A stretch of 61,704 nt of DNA from Candidatus Fermentithermobacillaceae bacterium (GTDB lineage Bacteria; Bacillota; Sulfobacillia; Fermentithermobacillales; Fermentithermobacillaceae): positions 1-61,704 of the forward strand of contig DUQH01000125.1 in the NCBI GenBank assembly GCA_012837895.1. The letters run 5' to 3'. Shown here in pieces: positions 1,984 through 50,206 of this stretch (the stretch's first letter is position 1; every line of letters starts with the position of its first letter). The position numbers were made by a program, and so were the translations under genes. The notes below the pieces were generated by a model. It saw nothing but the letters and a program-made list of their open reading frames with translations. It was not told the DNA's origin and did no database searches.

Positions 1984-1994
1984 ATAGCAGTGCA

Positions 1995-2230
1995 GGGCAA
2001 TGAAGGAGAACGTGGATCAGTAGTGTATACAGAGAAGGGAAGCCGTGGCTGAGAGCTTTCCAAATGCACAAGAGCTGATCGAATTCGCTCCGGAGCTCCC
2101 GGGCTGAAAACGCCAAGTAGGTCCGGCGCGCCTTCGCGTTATGGAGAACAAGAGTGGGCCCGGATAAGGGCCAACCACGGTGGTACCGCGGAAGTTGATG
2201 CTTTCGTCCGAGAGGATGAAGGCTTTTTTG
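1995..2230 (+). promoter_or_regulatory. T-box riboswitch (tRNA-Phe sensing leader of pheST)
   Basis: A leader of about 235 bases ends in the T-box signature GGTGGTACCGCGG (2179-2191) followed by an intrinsic terminator. A probable specifier codon TTC (Phe) sits at 2084-2086, between the GAGCT-containing arms of a Stem I-like element. In the signature, TGGT (2181-2184) would pair with an ACCA tRNA 3' end, fitting the A discriminator base of tRNA-Phe. Uncharged tRNA-Phe should stabilise the antiterminator and allow pheST transcription. The 5' limit is approximate. Confidence 0.9.
2200..2229 (+). terminator. Intrinsic terminator of the T-box leader
   Basis: GCTTTCGTCC (2200-2209), loop GAGA, GGATGAAGGC (2214-2223), then six T (2224-2229). 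The stem is complete with two G-U pairs. It lies just downstream of the T-box sequence, where the competing terminator is expected. Confidence 0.9.
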
Positions 2231-3358: not shown

Positions 3359-5812
3359 ATGAGAGTACCATGGACATGGCTCAACGAGTATGTGGACTTG
3401 CCGTGGGATCCCCAAGAGGCGGCACACCGCCTGGCCATGGCAGGAATAAACGTGGAGGAGCTTACACACGAAAAACTCGGTGTTAGCTCGGTTGTTTCAG
3501 CAAAAATACTGGATGTTAAGCCCCATCCCAGGAATCCCGGCCAAAAGATCGGCCTGCTTGACACAGGTACTGAGAGACTGCAGATAGTAAGCGGAGCCCC
3601 CGGGTTCAAGCAAGGAAACATCACTTTGGTAGCTAAACCAGGCGCAACCCTTCCCGGAGGGCTGACGATTGAACTGAAGGAGATCGATGGTGTAGCATCA
3701 CAGGGAATGGCGGTGTGCACCAATGAATTGTTGACAGGACAGCCTCCAAGGCCGTTTGAGGACATTATCCTCCTGCCGCCAGGCACTGCCCTGGGCATTC
3801 CCGCGGGAGAACTGTTTGAACTCGATGATTGGGTGATGGAACTCGACCTTACCGTCAATTACTCCCATTGCCTTGGAATTCTCGGAATTGCTATAGAAGC
3901 TGCGGCGCTAGCGAAAAGGTCTCTCAAGTTGCCTGAGGTGCTTGCCAGGTGGAATTGGGCAGACACCCATGGGAGTCAAAAGCCGGAACCAGACCACAAG
4001 GGAGACCCTGAATTCAAGATTGACCTGCCTCAGCCTGAGTTTTGCCCCAGGTATGTAGGCAAAGTCATAGAAGATGTAAGGTTTGCCTATTCGCCTGTAA
4101 ACATGGAAAGGCGCCTTCTGCTGGCAGGGCAAAGGCCGCTTAACCTTATCGTTGATGTGACCAACTACGTCATGCTGGAAACAGGACAGCCTCTTCACGC
4201 ATTTGATGCAGACCAGATAAAAGGGAAGACCATAATCGTGAGATCTTCCAGCCCGGGCGAAAGAGTTGTCACCCTCGATGATGTCGACCGGGAGTTACCT
4301 GAGAACACTATCCTGATTACCGATGCATCAGGCCCCATAGGCATTGCGGGGGTTATGGGCGGCAAGGCCACTGAAATCACTGAAGCCACCCGGAAGGTGC
4401 TCATTGAGTCTGCATATTTCGATCCTCTCACGGTGAGGCTCGGTTCCCAAAAACTCAAGCTCAGGACTGAAGCTGCCCTCAGGTTTGAAAAGGGCGTTGA
4501 CCCAACTGCCCAGGCAGCCATAGCAGAAAGGGCAGCCACCCTGATAGCAGACTTGTCAGGAGGAACACCTGTGCCAGGATATGCAGAGACTAACTACCTG
4601 GACGTGGAACCTAAGCGGATTGTGCTTCATATGCGGATTGTGGAAAGGCTGCTAGGAACCAAGTTTTCGCCTGAGACATGCAAGAATATACTTGAGGGGA
4701 TCAATTTCCAAGTTGAAGACATGAGAACACACACTGAGGACGCCTCGGTTTCAGTGGTGGTGCCCCCGAGGCGTGTAGATATTCACGGGGAAGTGGATCT
4801 TGTTGAAGAAGTGGCAAGGCACTACGGATATGACAATCTCGGCACTGGAGACCTATCCAGGGCAGTTCCTGGGGGTATCACAGATCCCGGGCTGCTTCAT
4901 GTGGAGAAAATAAGAGATCTTCTCGCCTCCCACGGCGGGCTGGAGTGTGTCACCAACTCACTTGTGAATCCTGAGGACTTGGCCAGTCTGGGGTGGGATC
5001 CAGACGACCCCAGGGGAAATCCGGTGAGGCTGCAGCACCCGTTATCTTCTGAGGAATCAGTGTTGCGGACCAGCCTTTTACCCGGCCTTGTGAAAGTAGC
5101 TTCTTCAAACACTAGGTCCGGGATACAAGGGCTTTTTGCATGGGAGATAGGAAGGGTTTTCTTTCCGTCACAGGAGCTTCTTCCTGTTGAAACAAGACAG
5201 ATTGGCCTGGTTTCATACGGCGTTCTCAGGCCCAAAACATGGTTGGGCGGGCAGGAAGAATCCGGTTTCTACCGTATGAAAGGGGTCATAGACAGCCTCA
5301 TGAGCCTGCTTGGAGTAGCTGACGTCAAGTACTTGCCTAAAGCAGGTATGCCGTTCCACCCTGGACGATCAGCCAAGATCGTAGCTAACATGTCAACAAT
5401 AGGGGAAATCGGCGACTTGCATCCTGTCTGTCTAAAGCGCCTGGACCTTCCCATGAGTGTTACTGCATGCTGGCTTTCCCTGGAAGGGTTACTGTCAATG
5501 GTGACGCCTGCAGAGTCAGTTGCCCCGTCCAGATTCATGCCTGTGGAAAGGGACTTGGCAGTGATCGTGCCTGAAGACGTATCCGGCGGAGAAGTAATCG
5601 ATTCCATTAGCAAGACCGGCCGGCACCTGGTGGCGGTAACCTTGTTTGATGTATGGAAAAAGCCGCCTGTCCCAGAAGGCTACAAGAGCCTGGCCTTCAG
5701 GCTTGTATACCAGCCACAAGACCGGACTTTGACAGAGGAGGAGCTGGCAGAGGATAGGGATAGGATCATGGATAAGTTGAGGCAAGATTACAAGGCCGTA
5801 CTGAGGTCATAA
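3359..5812 (+). CDS. pheT: Phenylalanine--tRNA ligase beta subunit
   Basis: Editing and tRNA-binding subunit partnering PheS; it hydrolyses mischarged Tyr-tRNA-Phe. At 817 residues it is full length. In order: an OB-fold EMAPII-like tRNA-binding domain (~40-150), the B3/B4 editing region (GQPLHAFD, ~275-283), the B5 domain, a catalytic-like core, and the C-terminal FDX-ACB anticodon-binding domain starting near SRFMPVERDLAV (~722). ATG 3359 follows AGGAGG by 11 bases. It lies 31 bases after pheS and is clearly co-transcribed. Confidence 0.97.
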   Translation: MRVPWTWLNEYVDLPWDPQEAAHRLAMAGINVEELTHEKLGVSSVVSAKILDVKPHPRNPGQKIGLLDTGTERLQIVSGAPGFKQGNITLVAKPGATLPGGLTIELKEIDGVASQGMAVCTNELLTGQPPRPFEDIILLPPGTALGIPAGELFELDDWVMELDLTVNYSHCLGILGIAIEAAALAKRSLKLPEVLARWNWADTHGSQKPEPDHKGDPEFKIDLPQPEFCPRYVGKVIEDVRFAYSPVNMERRLLLAGQRPLNLIVDVTNYVMLETGQPLHAFDADQIKGKTIIVRSSSPGERVVTLDDVDRELPENTILITDASGPIGIAGVMGGKATEITEATRKVLIESAYFDPLTVRLGSQKLKLRTEAALRFEKGVDPTAQAAIAERAATLIADLSGGTPVPGYAETNYLDVEPKRIVLHMRIVERLLGTKFSPETCKNILEGINFQVEDMRTHTEDASVSVVVPPRRVDIHGEVDLVEEVARHYGYDNLGTGDLSRAVPGGITDPGLLHVEKIRDLLASHGGLECVTNSLVNPEDLASLGWDPDDPRGNPVRLQHPLSSEESVLRTSLLPGLVKVASSNTRSGIQGLFAWEIGRVFFPSQELLPVETRQIGLVSYGVLRPKTWLGGQEESGFYRMKGVIDSLMSLLGVADVKYLPKAGMPFHPGRSAKIVANMSTIGEIGDLHPVCLKRLDLPMSVTACWLSLEGLLSMVTPAESVAPSRFMPVERDLAVIVPEDVSGGEVIDSISKTGRHLVAVTLFDVWKKPPVPEGYKSLAFRLVYQPQDRTLTEEELAEDRDRIMDKLRQDYKAVLRS

Positions 5813-11621: not shown

Positions 11622-13760
11622 CTACATTCCCCCTTGGTGATCGCCAAACTCCTCACCAGGCGAATCACCGTGTTCAGGGAGATCATCCTGCAAGATGCCA
11701 GGCCAATCACCTGGCATGCCTTCAGGGTGAAAATCGCAGATTGACGTAGGTGTTTTGCCCTTGACTCCCAGTTCAGTTATTATGTCCTCTTCAGGACAGT
11801 AAGGGCCGGGCAACAACCCTGACTTCTTGCACACCTGGATTTCCACTATAGTGTCTGGCCTGGTGAAATCTTCAACAGGCATATCTGCAGTGATAACCTT
11901 CATCATTGCATTCCAGATCCTCGCAGGATAGCTCCCGCCGGTGATCTTCCACTGGGCCATTGTCTTTTCGTGATCATAGCCCATCCACACCACACCCACA
12001 GTGCTAGGGGTGTATCCTGCAAACCATGCGTCTTTCCAGTCGCTTGTAGTGCCTGTCTTGCCTGCTGCCGGCCTGCCAAAATAGGCGGCTTGCCCGGTTC
12101 CCCCGGCTACAGTAAGCACGTCCTGAAGCATGCTGGTCATCAGGTATGCCGATTCTTCGGAAATCACAATCTGCCTGTTTACGCTGTGCTCTTCTAACAC
12201 ATTGCCATTTTTGTCCTCAACTTTGAGTATTGACAAAGGCTGAACCTGAATCCCCCGGTTAGCTATAGTACTGAAAGCTACTGCCATATCCAGGGGAGTG
12301 ACCCCGTAAGTAAGCCCGCCAAGCGCAAGGGATCTGGTAAGGTCAGATCGGCCTCCTGAATCAGGCGTCTTGACAAGCGTAGTAATTCCAAGTTTTTCAG
12401 ACATCTCAAGGCTGGTTCTCAGGCCGACCATATCCTGAACCTTACACGCCACTACGTTTAGAGACTCCCTTACACCTTTTCTCATCGTGACAAGTCCTTG
12501 GAAGTTGCCGCTGTAGTTTCTCGGCGAGAATTCTTCACCAGTGGTGGGATCTACCCAGGTCACAGGCGAATCGTCGATCACTGTATAAGGGCCCATGCCC
12601 ATTTCCAGGGCAGGTGTATATACGGAAATGGGTTTGAAAGCAGAGCCGGGCTGGCGTTTTGCATCAATTGTACGGTTCCATCCCAGCATACCCTCGTGCC
12701 TTCTTCCGCCTACAAGGGCAAGCAGGTGACCTGTCCTGACGTCCATCACTACTGTGGCGGCTTCAATGTTGTCTTCTCCGGGTTTATAGGGGAAGACAGG
12801 ATCAAGCACCTCTCTTATAGCCGCCTCTGCAGCCCTCTGGGCGGCCGGGTTGTATGTTGTATATACACGTAAGCCGCCTCCGTATACCAAATCTGCCGGG
12901 TAACGCGAGAGCAGTTGCTCCAGCACGAAGTCTAGGAAGTAGCCGCCTTCTGTAACTACCATAGGTTCATGATCGATAATGTTGAGCGGTTTACTCTTGT
13001 AAACCTCAGCCTCATCCTGGGTGATAAACCCGTATTCGGCCATCTGGTTAAGCACTGTATTCCGCCTCTTTACTGCTTGCTCAAGGTTTGATTTGTCCCC
13101 GTAGTACGAAGGCGCCCTTATGGCTCCGGCCAGAAAAGCTGCTTCATCCACTGTTAGTTCAGAAACAGGCTTGGCGAAGTACGCTCTTGCCGCTGCTTCA
13201 GCCCCATGTGCCCCGCGGCCAAAGTGAATCTGGTTGATGTACATCTCCAGGATTTCCTTCTTGGTGTACTTGCGTTCCATGAGCACAGCAACTATGATAT
13301 CCTGGACTTTTCGCTTAAGGGTCCTGTCATACTCAAGGAAGGCAATCTTGGCAAGCTGCTGGGTGATAGTACTGCCTCCTTGCAGCGATGAATCGTCTAC
13401 GATGTTTTGATATAAAGCCCTCATGATCGCCCTTAAGTCGAACCCGGGATGGCTGTAAAACCTGTGGTCTTCAGCAGCGAGAACTGCATCAATCAGGTGC
13501 TGGGGCATATCGTTGACGGAGACGGGGATCCGGTATTCACTTGACCTGAGCTCAGTCCATACGTCTCCGTTACGGTCATATATTATCGATATTTCGCTCG
13601 CCTCAGGCTCAAGGCCTGCAAGTGCCGGGAGATCCCGTATTGCCGAAACTACAACTGCAGCTGCAAAACCGGCTCCCACGAGAACCAATCCCAACAAAAG
13701 GTATATTACCGCCTCAAGGGCCCTGACGCCCTTCTTGGGCCTGCGTCTTCTTTTTGCCAT
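11622..13760 (-). CDS. Class A (bifunctional) penicillin-binding protein, PBP1A type
   Basis: Membrane-anchored peptidoglycan polymerase and cross-linker. The 712 residues begin with a basic cytoplasmic tail and one transmembrane helix (~16-38). The GT51 glycosyltransferase domain carries [12 protein letters not shown] (~97) and [11 protein letters not shown] (~128-138). The transpeptidase domain has SAFK (catalytic Ser, ~377), SLN (~435) and KTGT (~567). A short acidic, Pro/Gly-rich C-terminus follows. It is the only leftward gene in the first 56 kb, expressed from an extended -10 promoter overlapping that of tyrS. Similar to PonA/PbpF/PbpG types; which one cannot be fixed. Confidence 0.95.
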
Positions 13761-13890
13761 AACTCACTACCTCCAGCGGTTGCCATACGGCTCACCTGCA
13801 CTGTTGTATGTCAGCTACATTATCTCTTTATGCGTTTACGCTTGCTACTCCCATGTTACCAGACGAAAAAATCACTGATAAGGTGTCAAC

Positions 13891-13919
13891 ATTATACCAT
13901 TTTCAGCAATTGGCTTCTT
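13891..13919 (-). promoter_or_regulatory. Leftward promoter for the class A PBP
   Basis: On the minus strand TGGTATAAT is an extended -10 (hexamer at 13891-13896). The position 17 bases upstream (13914-13919) reads AAGAAG, so there is no consensus -35. A start near 13884 would give a leader of about 125 bases. It is back-to-back with the tyrS promoter. Confidence 0.6.
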
Positions 13920-13943
13920 GAGGTCTGCCGCGAATGGTATAAT
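13915..13943 (+). promoter_or_regulatory. Rightward promoter for tyrS
   Basis: Extended -10 TGGTATAAT (hexamer 13938-13943). At 17-base spacing the -35 is TTCTTG (13915-13920); TTGAGG at 13918-13923 would leave only 14 bases. The leader to the TTG start at 13974 is only ~25 bases, so there is no room for a T-box, although Firmicutes tyrS genes often have one. Confidence 0.65.
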
Positions 13944-13973
13944 CAAACGAAAAGCCCAAGGAGGGTTAGTGCT

Positions 13974-15206
13974 TTGGGAAAATTGGAAGATGCAGTTAAC
14001 CACCAAACTGAGTTGCTCAGCCAGAGGGCTGCAATGCTGGTTACCGTGGAAGAACTTAGGGCCAAGATAAGGCGTTCCCTGGAGAAACAGCAGCCTCTGA
14101 AAGTAAAATTGGGAGTGGACCCCAGTGCCCCTGACCTCCACCTTGGCCACATGGTGGTTATGAGGAAACTCAGGGAATTTCAGGAACTGGGCCATGAGAT
14201 ATACTTTGTAATCGGTGATTTCACTGGGATGATTGGGGATCCCACCGGCAGGTCAAAGACCAGGAGGCAACTGTCAAGGGAAGAAGTTGAAGCCAACGCC
14301 CGTACATATCATGAACAAGCCACGTTAATCCTCGACCCTGACAAGACCCATGTAGTTTTCAATTCATCCTGGCTGTCGCCTCTTACATTTGGGGAACTGA
14401 TAAAGCTGGCTTCCAAGTTCACTGTGGCCCGAATGCTTGAGAGGGATGATTTCCATAACCGATACACGGAGGGACAGGCCATTGGAATCCACGAGTTCTT
14501 GTACCCACTGGCCCAGGCGCACGACTCAATTGCCATCAACGCTGACGTGGAGCTTGGTGGGACAGACCAGACTTTTAACCTCCTGGTGGGCAGGGACATA
14601 CAGCCCCATTACGGGCAGGAACCGCAGATAGCGCTGACTATGCCGCTTCTTGTAGGAACCGACGGAAAAGAAAAGATGTCCAAGAGCCTTGGCAATTACA
14701 TTGGTGTCACTGATGAGCCCAATGACATGTATGGGAAAGTGATGTCCATTCCCGATGACGTAATGGGCGACTATTTCGAGTTAGTCCTGGCCGAACCCAA
14801 GCCTTCGGTGCAGGGCATGATGCGTGATATAGAGTCAGGTAGACGTCATCCGATGGACGTGAAAATGGAACTGGCAAAGAGAATCGTAACAGAATTCCAT
14901 GGGATGAATGCGGCGAGTACTGCACAAGAAAACTTCTTGAAGGTATTCAGGCAAGATGACCTTCCAGATGATATTGAAACAGTGAACCTGAAGGACCTTA
15001 CGGAAGGCGAAGAAATAGGGCTGGCAAGACTGATTGCATTGTGTGGGCTGGCACCTTCTTCATCTGAAGCCAGGCGCCTGATTAGTAGCGGTGCTGTAAG
15101 GGTCAACCGTGAGAGGAAAGACGATCCGTCTGCTTTGATCAAGGTGACAAACGGTATGCTGCTTCAAGTAGGCAAGCGGCGGATTTGCAAGCTTAGCGTG
15201 AGGTAG
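13974..15206 (+). CDS. tyrS: Tyrosine--tRNA ligase
   Basis: Class I synthetase charging tRNA-Tyr. I chose TTG 13974 (410 residues) because AAGGAGGG lies 8 bases upstream and the promoter -10 at 13938-13943 excludes any longer form. Motifs: HLGH (the HIGH signature, ~55), [13 protein letters not shown] (~81-93), KMSKS (~234), and a C-terminal S4 RNA-binding domain (~345-408). The HLGH/KMSKS pairing and the length suggest the TyrZ-like type. It is a single-gene unit divergent from the PBP gene. Confidence 0.96.
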
Positions 15207-48593: not shown

Positions 48594-49321
48594 CCCTGAT
48601 GTCATGGACTGAATTCAGATTGATGCTTTCCCTAAAATGGGCGCGCCTTGTCGCCAGGTTAGGCTTACATGGCAGGATAGACTATATTGGAGGTGCTGAA
48701 GCATTACCGCCGCCCCTGTCACAGGAAGAAGAGAGCATCTTACTGTCACAGCTTACCGACGGAAGCCCCGATGTAAGATCTATCCTGATTGAAAGAAATC
48801 TACGGCTCGTAGTTTATATTGCCAAGAAGTTTGAAAGCACTGGCATCCCCTTAGATGACTTGGTGTCTATTGGTTCAATCGGTTTGATAAAAGCAGTATC
48901 AACGTTTGACGTAAGCAAGAATATACGGCTGGCAACATACGCTTCAAAATGCATTGAAAATGAAATTCTAATGTATTTGCGGCGAACCTTGAAGACAAAG
49001 TCTGAGATTTCATTCGACGAACCCCTGAATATCGACGGAGAAGGCAATGAGCTTTGCCTTTCTGACGTTAAAGGTACCCCTCCGGATGTGATCTACTGCG
49101 ATCTCGAAAAAGAAGACGACAAGCAAATCCTCAGGCTGGTGCTCAACCGGCTGCCCTGGCGCGAAAGAACCATTGTGGACCTGCGGTACGGCCTCAAAGA
49201 CGGCATTGAGCGCACACAGAAACAGGTAGCAGACATGCTTGGCATCTCGCAGTCTTACATCTCCCGCTTAGAAAAAAAGATCATGCAAAAACTGCAGAGA
49301 GACATCATCAATTTGCAGTAG
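48590..49321 (+). CDS. sigE: RNA polymerase sporulation sigma factor SigE (pro-sigma-E)
   Basis: Early mother-cell sigma factor. 243 residues from TTG 48590 (GGAGG 9 bases upstream). The N-terminal ~30 residues are the amphipathic pro-sequence, ending in [12 protein letters not shown], the conserved SpoIIGA processing zone. Region 2 ([26 protein letters not shown], ~70) and region 4 helix-turn-helix ([23 protein letters not shown], ~206) follow. Membrane-bound and inactive until cleaved. Confidence 0.97.
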
Positions 49322-49432: not shown

Positions 49433-50206
49433 TTGTACAAAGTTGAAATCTGCGGAGTAAACACCAGTAAACTTCCTGTCCTTTCCTCATCACAAATGCG
49501 GGAGCTTTTTGTTGCCAAGCAAAACGGTGACCCGACTGCAAGGGAAAAACTGGTCAACGGCAATCTGAGGCTGGTTCTAAGTGTGATTCAGCGCTTTTCC
49601 AACCGCGGGGAATATGTCGACGACCTGTTCCAGGTAGGGTGTATCGGCCTCATCAAGGCCATCGACAATTTCGACCTAAGTCAGAATGTAAAATTTTCCA
49701 CTTACGCTGTGCCTATGATTATCGGCGAGATAAAGAGGTATCTGAGGGACAACAATCCAATACGCGTGTCCAGGTCCCTTCGTGATACTGCTTACAGGGC
49801 ACTTCAGACCCGGGATGCCCTTGTGGCTAAGCTAGGCAGGGAGCCTTCAATCAGGGAAATCTCTGAGCAGCTGAAAACTCCTGAGGATGAAATCGTTTAC
49901 GCTCTCGATGCTATACAAGAACCGATTAGCTTGTTTGAGCCCGTCTACCACGATGGCGGCGACCCCATATACGTTATGGACCAGGTGAAAGACGAAAAGG
50001 GGGAAGATTCGGCGTGGGTTCAGGAAATATCCATAAATGAGTCCATACAGAAATTATCCCAGCGCGAACAGGCAATAATAAGAATGAGATTTTTTGAAGG
50101 AAAAACTCAAATGGAAGTTGCGCAGGAAATAGGAATCTCCCAAGCGCAAGTTTCCAGGCTGGAAAAAGCTGCGTTGATACAGATGAAGCAGCATATGTCG
50201 CTGTAG
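49433..50206 (+). CDS. sigG: RNA polymerase sporulation sigma factor SigG
   Basis: Late forespore sigma factor. 257 residues from TTG 49433: N-terminal KVEICGVNTSKLPVL is the SigG-specific motif; region 2 NLRLVLSVIQRFSNRGEYVDDLFQVG (~42), region 3 (~115-165) and the region 4 helix-turn-helix TQMEVAQEIGISQAQVSRLEKAA (~227) follow. It lies downstream of sigE with its own sigma-F promoter. No anti-sigma genes (spoIIAB, gin) are in the window. Confidence 0.97.
   Translation: MYKVEICGVNTSKLPVLSSSQMRELFVAKQNGDPTAREKLVNGNLRLVLSVIQRFSNRGEYVDDLFQVGCIGLIKAIDNFDLSQNVKFSTYAVPMIIGEIKRYLRDNNPIRVSRSLRDTAYRALQTRDALVAKLGREPSIREISEQLKTPEDEIVYALDAIQEPISLFEPVYHDGGDPIYVMDQVKDEKGEDSAWVQEISINESIQKLSQREQAIIRMRFFEGKTQMEVAQEIGISQAQVSRLEKAALIQMKQHMSL

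Follow-up and report, generated by a model that had tools for sequence, protein, structure and literature searches.

We identified what are probably three promoters in the 213-bp gap between the divergent genes tyrS and pbp1a of a Candidatus Fermentithermobacillaceae bacterium. Judging from sequence and conservation, we assign a probability of roughly three in four (0.74) to a gap holding a sigma-A promoter for tyrS, a sigma-A promoter for pbp1a and an ECF-sigma promoter for pbp1a, which would place the latter gene under both housekeeping and envelope-stress control. The original prediction described two outward-facing -10 elements and overlooked a further element facing pbp, the promoter-like GACACC-N16-CGTCT on the pbp strand (13887-13861), which has the form of an ECF sigma promoter. 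The features in and around the gap are given below; the window is the whole stretch of 61,704 nucleotides that was analysed.

11622..13760, minus strand: class A penicillin-binding protein (PBP) gene (PBP1A family, 712 aa), ATG at 13760
13774-13770, minus strand: PBP ribosome-binding site GGAGG, read in the sequence
13861..13865, minus strand: ECF-type -10 CGTCT, separated by 16 nt from the -35; predicted start ~13856
13882..13887, minus strand: ECF-type -35 GACACC, 3 nt after the sigma-A -10 of pbp
13891..13899, minus strand: extended -10 TGGTATAAT, putative sigma-A-type pbp promoter, predicted start ~13884
13891-13901 and 13933-13943: inverted repeat arms, perfect over 11 bp, 31-bp loop
13901..13933: zone between the -10s, within which both -35 positions fall; no -35 hexamer
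13935..13943, plus strand: extended -10 TGGTATAAT, putative sigma-A-type tyrS promoter, predicted start ~13950
13958-13965, plus strand: tyrS ribosome-binding site AAGGAGGG, read in the sequence
13974..15206, plus strand: tyrS, tyrosyl-tRNA synthetase, TTG start at 13974

Genes and loci compared

The gene names of the original prediction are correct. The tyrS product scores 374.3 bits against TIGR00234 (cut-off 113.8) and the PBP 581.8 bits against TIGR02074 (cut-off 508.75), in agreement with its Pfam domains Transgly and Transpeptidase. In a limited literature search we found no report of a divergent pbp-tyrS gene pair.

The predicted tyrS leader is only ~24 nt and contains no T-box. The sole Rfam match in the window is a T-box leader (RF00230, 97.2 bits) at 1991-2214 (+), upstream of which lies a further copy of TGGTATAAT (1823-1831). 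At the Rfam gathering threshold T-boxes are also absent from 20 class loci. Two relatives, L025 and L029, unlike the family of the window, carry before tyrS the stretch AGGGTGGTACC, which by eye we take to be T-box-like and which falls below the gathering threshold. The L029 stretch also contains a SAM riboswitch (RF00162, 88.9 bits, 3647-3785, +).

For comparison, tyrS was searched for in 61 genomes (60 matched), in 14 genomes of the family, and in 136 genomes of the class (128 matched). We compared 98 stretches preceding tyrS (L001-L031 and L211-L277), 63 of which contain a divergent PBP gene; the other 35, which have no PBP gene in the stretch and some of which end at a contig boundary, were left out, as were 80 distant tyrS loci from a contig search. 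The family set consists of 13 loci with a readable gap from 13 genomes. One family genome (G012) gave only a weak tyrS match and no usable locus, and in another (G001) parts of tyrS lie on two contigs, C72 and C77; L031 is the gap of this genome.

Two probable housekeeping promoters without -35 elements

Extended -10 promoters carry TGn directly before a TATAAT-like hexamer, and in them the -35 element is dispensable. Both arms of the inverted repeat were predicted to be elements of this kind facing outward, which holds: each side of the gap has a conserved TGGTATAAT without a -35, and each is kept in relatives. TATAAT is present on both sides in 13 of 13 family loci. It extends to TGRTATAAT on the tyrS side in all 13 and to TGnTATAAT on the pbp side in 12, while the thirteenth (L031) reads TTGTATAAT. 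Among the five congeners the two -10s are invariant at 9/10 and 8/10 positions, and in relatives they drift between TGG and TGA. Because each -10 is kept on its own account, the pair probably represents two divergent housekeeping promoters rather than an operator.

The two promoters had also been proposed to share a -35 region. The geometry is as described, in that 17-bp spacers put the -35 at 13915-13920 (+) and 13914-13919 (-). However, the bases at these positions are TTCTTG and AAGAAG, and we rejected a shared -35 element since neither side has a recognisable one. The best TTGACA-like hexamer at spacers of 15-19 matches only two of six positions for tyrS and three of six for pbp, and a sigma-70 scan of the sequence lists neither promoter. 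With no usable -35 on either side, both are classed as extended -10 promoters, and the overlap of -35 positions is a coincidence of spacing. In the zone between the -10s, 15 of 33 bases are invariant in the five congeners, a modest level of conservation that fits no known element. The sequence TTGAGG (13918-13923) is invariant in all five and lies at no usable -35 distance.

A candidate ECF-type promoter upstream of pbp1a

The hallmarks of ECF promoters are an AAC-type -35 and a CGT -10 (PMC8103513), and CGTC is described as a determinant for an ECF sigma factor of Thermoanaerobacter (PMC3397946). The element GACACC-N16-CGTCT has this general form (AAC-type -35, -10 CGT(C), ~15-17 nt between them). 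Its -35 is weaker than GGAACC and has CAC rather than AAC.

The pattern GNNACY-N15-17-CGTC is found on the pbp strand in 13/13 family gaps and on the opposite strand in 0/13. Control patterns gave one match when reversed, none when complemented, and a mean of 0.13 (maximum 1) in shuffled sequence. In 12 of the 13 loci the site begins exactly 3 nt after TATAAT, even though the length of its internal spacer varies (15, 16 or 17). The exception is L011, where the site is found upstream of the -10. Among the congeners the two halves are invariant at 10/11 positions, with CGTCT identical in all five, and the spacer at 5/16.

Beyond the family the site becomes scarce. A wider pattern (N14-18, CGTC[TA]) applied to the 63 class loci matches the pbp strand in 19 and the tyrS strand in one, and at least three of the 19 look like chance (L219 and L220 with N14, and L224 over a T-box-like stretch). 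Similar sites precede pbp outside the family in L017, L018 and L216, lying upstream of the sigma-A -10 in the latter two. Among these 63 loci the motif is absent from the order-level relatives L014-L016 and from most other families.

A conserved pbp site of this form might instead be unrelated to promoters, such as a repressor site or a leader element. We consider this unlikely. The -35 half does vary (GACACC, GGCACC, GGGACC, GGAACC) and no autoregulated ECF gene was found, as would fit such a site. However, its orientation is fixed, its spacer varies in sequence while staying 15-17 nt long, the same form precedes two other envelope genes, and it matches sigma-E promoters (as described in PMC6767563). 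An ECF-type promoter is the reading we prefer.

Further candidate targets and sigma factors

In the genome of the window, the pattern AGACG-N15-17-GGTKBC is not in excess (19 matches, 19 in the control), nor is a second ECF pattern (21 matches, 31 in the control). In five other family genomes the total for the ECF pattern is near the control level. Given this lack of genome-wide enrichment, the case for an ECF promoter is one of conservation.

Among own-genome matches outside ORFs of at least 90 aa, two face a gene, and a third (L333) lies near a contig end without a clear target. The first, a match to AGACG-N15-17-GGTKBC, precedes a gene for a DUF4015 putative glycosyl hydrolase (L092 1501-1527; G000:C96:24881-24907). 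Of 15 loci with orthologues of this gene, 9 contain the site (against 2 antisense and 1 reversed), with GAAACC-type sites in 5/5 congeners and 3/3 g4 loci and one doubtful match in g5. In genera g2 and g3 it is found in 0/6 DUF4015 loci, although the 400 nt searched may not extend as far as the true gene start in g2. The second, which came from the second pattern, precedes a gene for an SLH/Germane/Gmad2 protein (L328 1501-1527; G000:C64:53925-53951); 7 of its 13 orthologous loci contain the site (against 1 antisense and 2 reversed). By their domains, all three predicted targets (pbp, DUF4015 and SLH/Germane/Gmad2) are envelope proteins. The motif is shared by this set of envelope genes within one genome, the DUF4015 and SLH/Germane/Gmad2 sites being conserved in part of the family. 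The SLH/Germane/Gmad2 gene is divergent from a probable serS, a second divergent pair of an envelope gene and an aminoacyl-tRNA synthetase gene in the genome.

The genome contains 11 matches to Sigma70 region 2, and three of these look like ECF sigmas, judging from their length and their resemblance to one another. The strict motif occurs within 350 nt upstream in 0/28 ECF-like sigma loci of the family, and a loose form gives four matches in three loci, none of them convincing. Autoregulation is therefore not seen at these loci. It is common but not universal among known ECFs, at about 55% (PMC8103513). Two adjacent sigma-70 family genes in the window, at 48785-48988 and 49550-49756 (+), read like sporulation sigmas.

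Possible exclusion between the tyrS and pbp1a promoters

RNA polymerase at a promoter has a standard footprint of about -55 to +20, or about 75 bp. Taking each predicted start as 7 nt after its -10, the tyrS and pbp starts are 66 bp apart, and on this general figure for the footprint two polymerases would overlap by ~45 bp. They would be expected to clash, making simultaneous occupancy unlikely. The original prediction that polymerase can face only one direction at a time is thus probable for this genus, but the distance on which it depends is not conserved across the family. The -10 hexamers are separated by 41 bp in the five congeners (g1), 15 bp in four g2 loci, 55 bp in g3, 76 bp in g5 and 98 bp in two g4 loci, and the predicted starts in these other genera by 40 (four loci), 80 (one), 101 (one) and 123 bp (two). 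Steric exclusion is likely, and more so than here, at the 40 bp of g2. It is unlikely at the 123 bp of g4, where footprints need not overlap.

The original prediction went further and linked tRNA-Tyr charging capacity to wall polymerase expression; read as a conserved design, mutual exclusion over the common upstream DNA would be a selected device tying tyrS to pbp output. Some observations favor this. Spacing is constant within genera, with starts 66 bp apart in 5/5 congeners and 40 bp apart in 4/4 g2 loci. Both -10s are near consensus, so that high occupancy is conceivable. In addition, a close pair occurs in L233 of another family (f19), whose pbp-tyrS gap has two TGTTATAAT with 13 bp between the -10 hexamers. 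However, start distances ranging from 40 to 123 bp among genera of the family, including the 80, 101 and 123 bp noted above, argue against coupling by exclusion as a conserved design. Strict extended -10s on both sides are present in 22 of the 63 class loci, where the 9-mers are separated by 7 to 234 bp; in 10 of these the separation is at most 50 bp, and 9 of the 10 belong to this family. Moreover, the promoters lack -35s, and a physiological reason for an inverse link between tyrS and pbp is not evident.

Tighter arrangements in E. coli also show no basal competition. At the five bidirectional promoters tested in the work described in PMC12825309, with starts ~10-23 bp apart, basal activity is reported as too low for competition, which arises only upon strong activation of one direction. 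A selected device thus seems decidedly unlikely, and exclusion of the tyrS and pbp promoters is probably a consequence of the short gap. Like the bidirectional promoters studied by Warman, Grainger and colleagues, the gap would bring opposed polymerases onto common DNA with steric exclusion. However, those promoters share one symmetric -10 and have starts 10, 18 or 23 bp apart (PMC12825309), whereas here there are two separate -10 hexamers, 41 bp apart, with predicted starts separated by 66 bp, closer to the separate divergent promoters described in the same source.

The inverted repeat

The sequences ATTATACCAT (13891-13900) and ATGGTATAAT (13934-13943) are present as predicted and do form a perfect inverted repeat, although the match runs over 11 bp rather than 10, extending one base further toward the loop on each side. 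Bare repeats of 10 bp around a short loop are not rare in this window, which contains 17 complementary 10-mer pairs (loops of at most 60 bp, overlapping pairs counted) compared with 3.6 +/- 1.7 in 20 shuffles. The sequence TGGTATAAT has nine copies in the 2.05-Mb genome against six for a reversed control. The pair is meaningful because two of these nine copies are back to back in a 213-bp divergent gap.

Conservation of the repeat in relatives had been put forward as a check on its role. The perfect 10-bp form is intact in only two of five congeners (G000 and G002); what is kept are the -10s, not the repeat or the distance. That the repeat is an operator through which a dimeric regulator controls both genes is highly improbable, since despite perfect 11-bp symmetry and centers about four helical turns apart, the symmetry is left perfect in only those two congeners, the substitutions are those tolerated at the third base of an extended -10, and the arm spacing ranges from 7 to >90 bp in relatives, yet each arm remains a -10. 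An RNA hairpin was also rejected, as neither predicted transcript covers both arms. On the sequences compared, the inverted repeat is a by-product of two near-consensus -10s.

A three-promoter model and its implications

In the arrangement that we favor, promoter 1, a -35-less extended -10 sigma-A promoter, would transcribe tyrS rightward from ~13950, and promoter 2, a similar extended -10 sigma-A promoter, pbp1a leftward from ~13884. The latter would supply a basal level of the wall polymerase. Promoter 3, the putative ECF-sigma promoter GACACC-N16-CGTCT, would transcribe pbp1a leftward from ~13856 and raise the level of the wall polymerase upon release of an envelope-stress ECF sigma. As only 3 nt lie between the sigma-A -10 and the ECF -35, simultaneous occupancy of both pbp promoters would not be possible. 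An extension of this model, which we regard as very doubtful, is a switch in which stress-induced ECF polymerase ousts sigma-A polymerase from the pbp -10 and largely clears the tyrS zone, so that pbp would rise while tyrS would not be silenced and might even be freed. If such a three-promoter switch were true, the selected feature would be the exact 3-nt offset, which is held in 12/13 loci despite changing spacers.

Parts of this arrangement resemble known systems. As proposed for pbp1a here, PBP1 of B. subtilis (ponA), the major class A PBP, combines basal expression with control by an ECF sigma, being a member of the sigma-M regulon (PMC7478892). In the present case the candidate ECF promoter begins 3 nt after the sigma-A -10, within a gap that also serves tyrS. 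The element also resembles sigma-E promoters of Streptomyces coelicolor, which have a GNNAAC/GACACC -35 and a CGTCT -10. Validated examples have a spacer of 16 or 17, one reads GACACC, and the targets include high-molecular-weight PBPs (PMC6767563). However, Streptomyces belongs to another phylum, and the likeness is one of promoter form. Moreover, a spacer of 15 also occurs in this family.

In place of a speculative connection from tRNA charging to wall synthesis, these results suggest a simpler one that can be tested. In an uncultured lineage that bears spore genes, a class A PBP is probably controlled by an envelope-stress sigma of the ECF type, for which the same genome contains at least two more candidate targets. 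The constant overlap between the housekeeping promoter and the stress promoter would offer a natural test of sigma competition.
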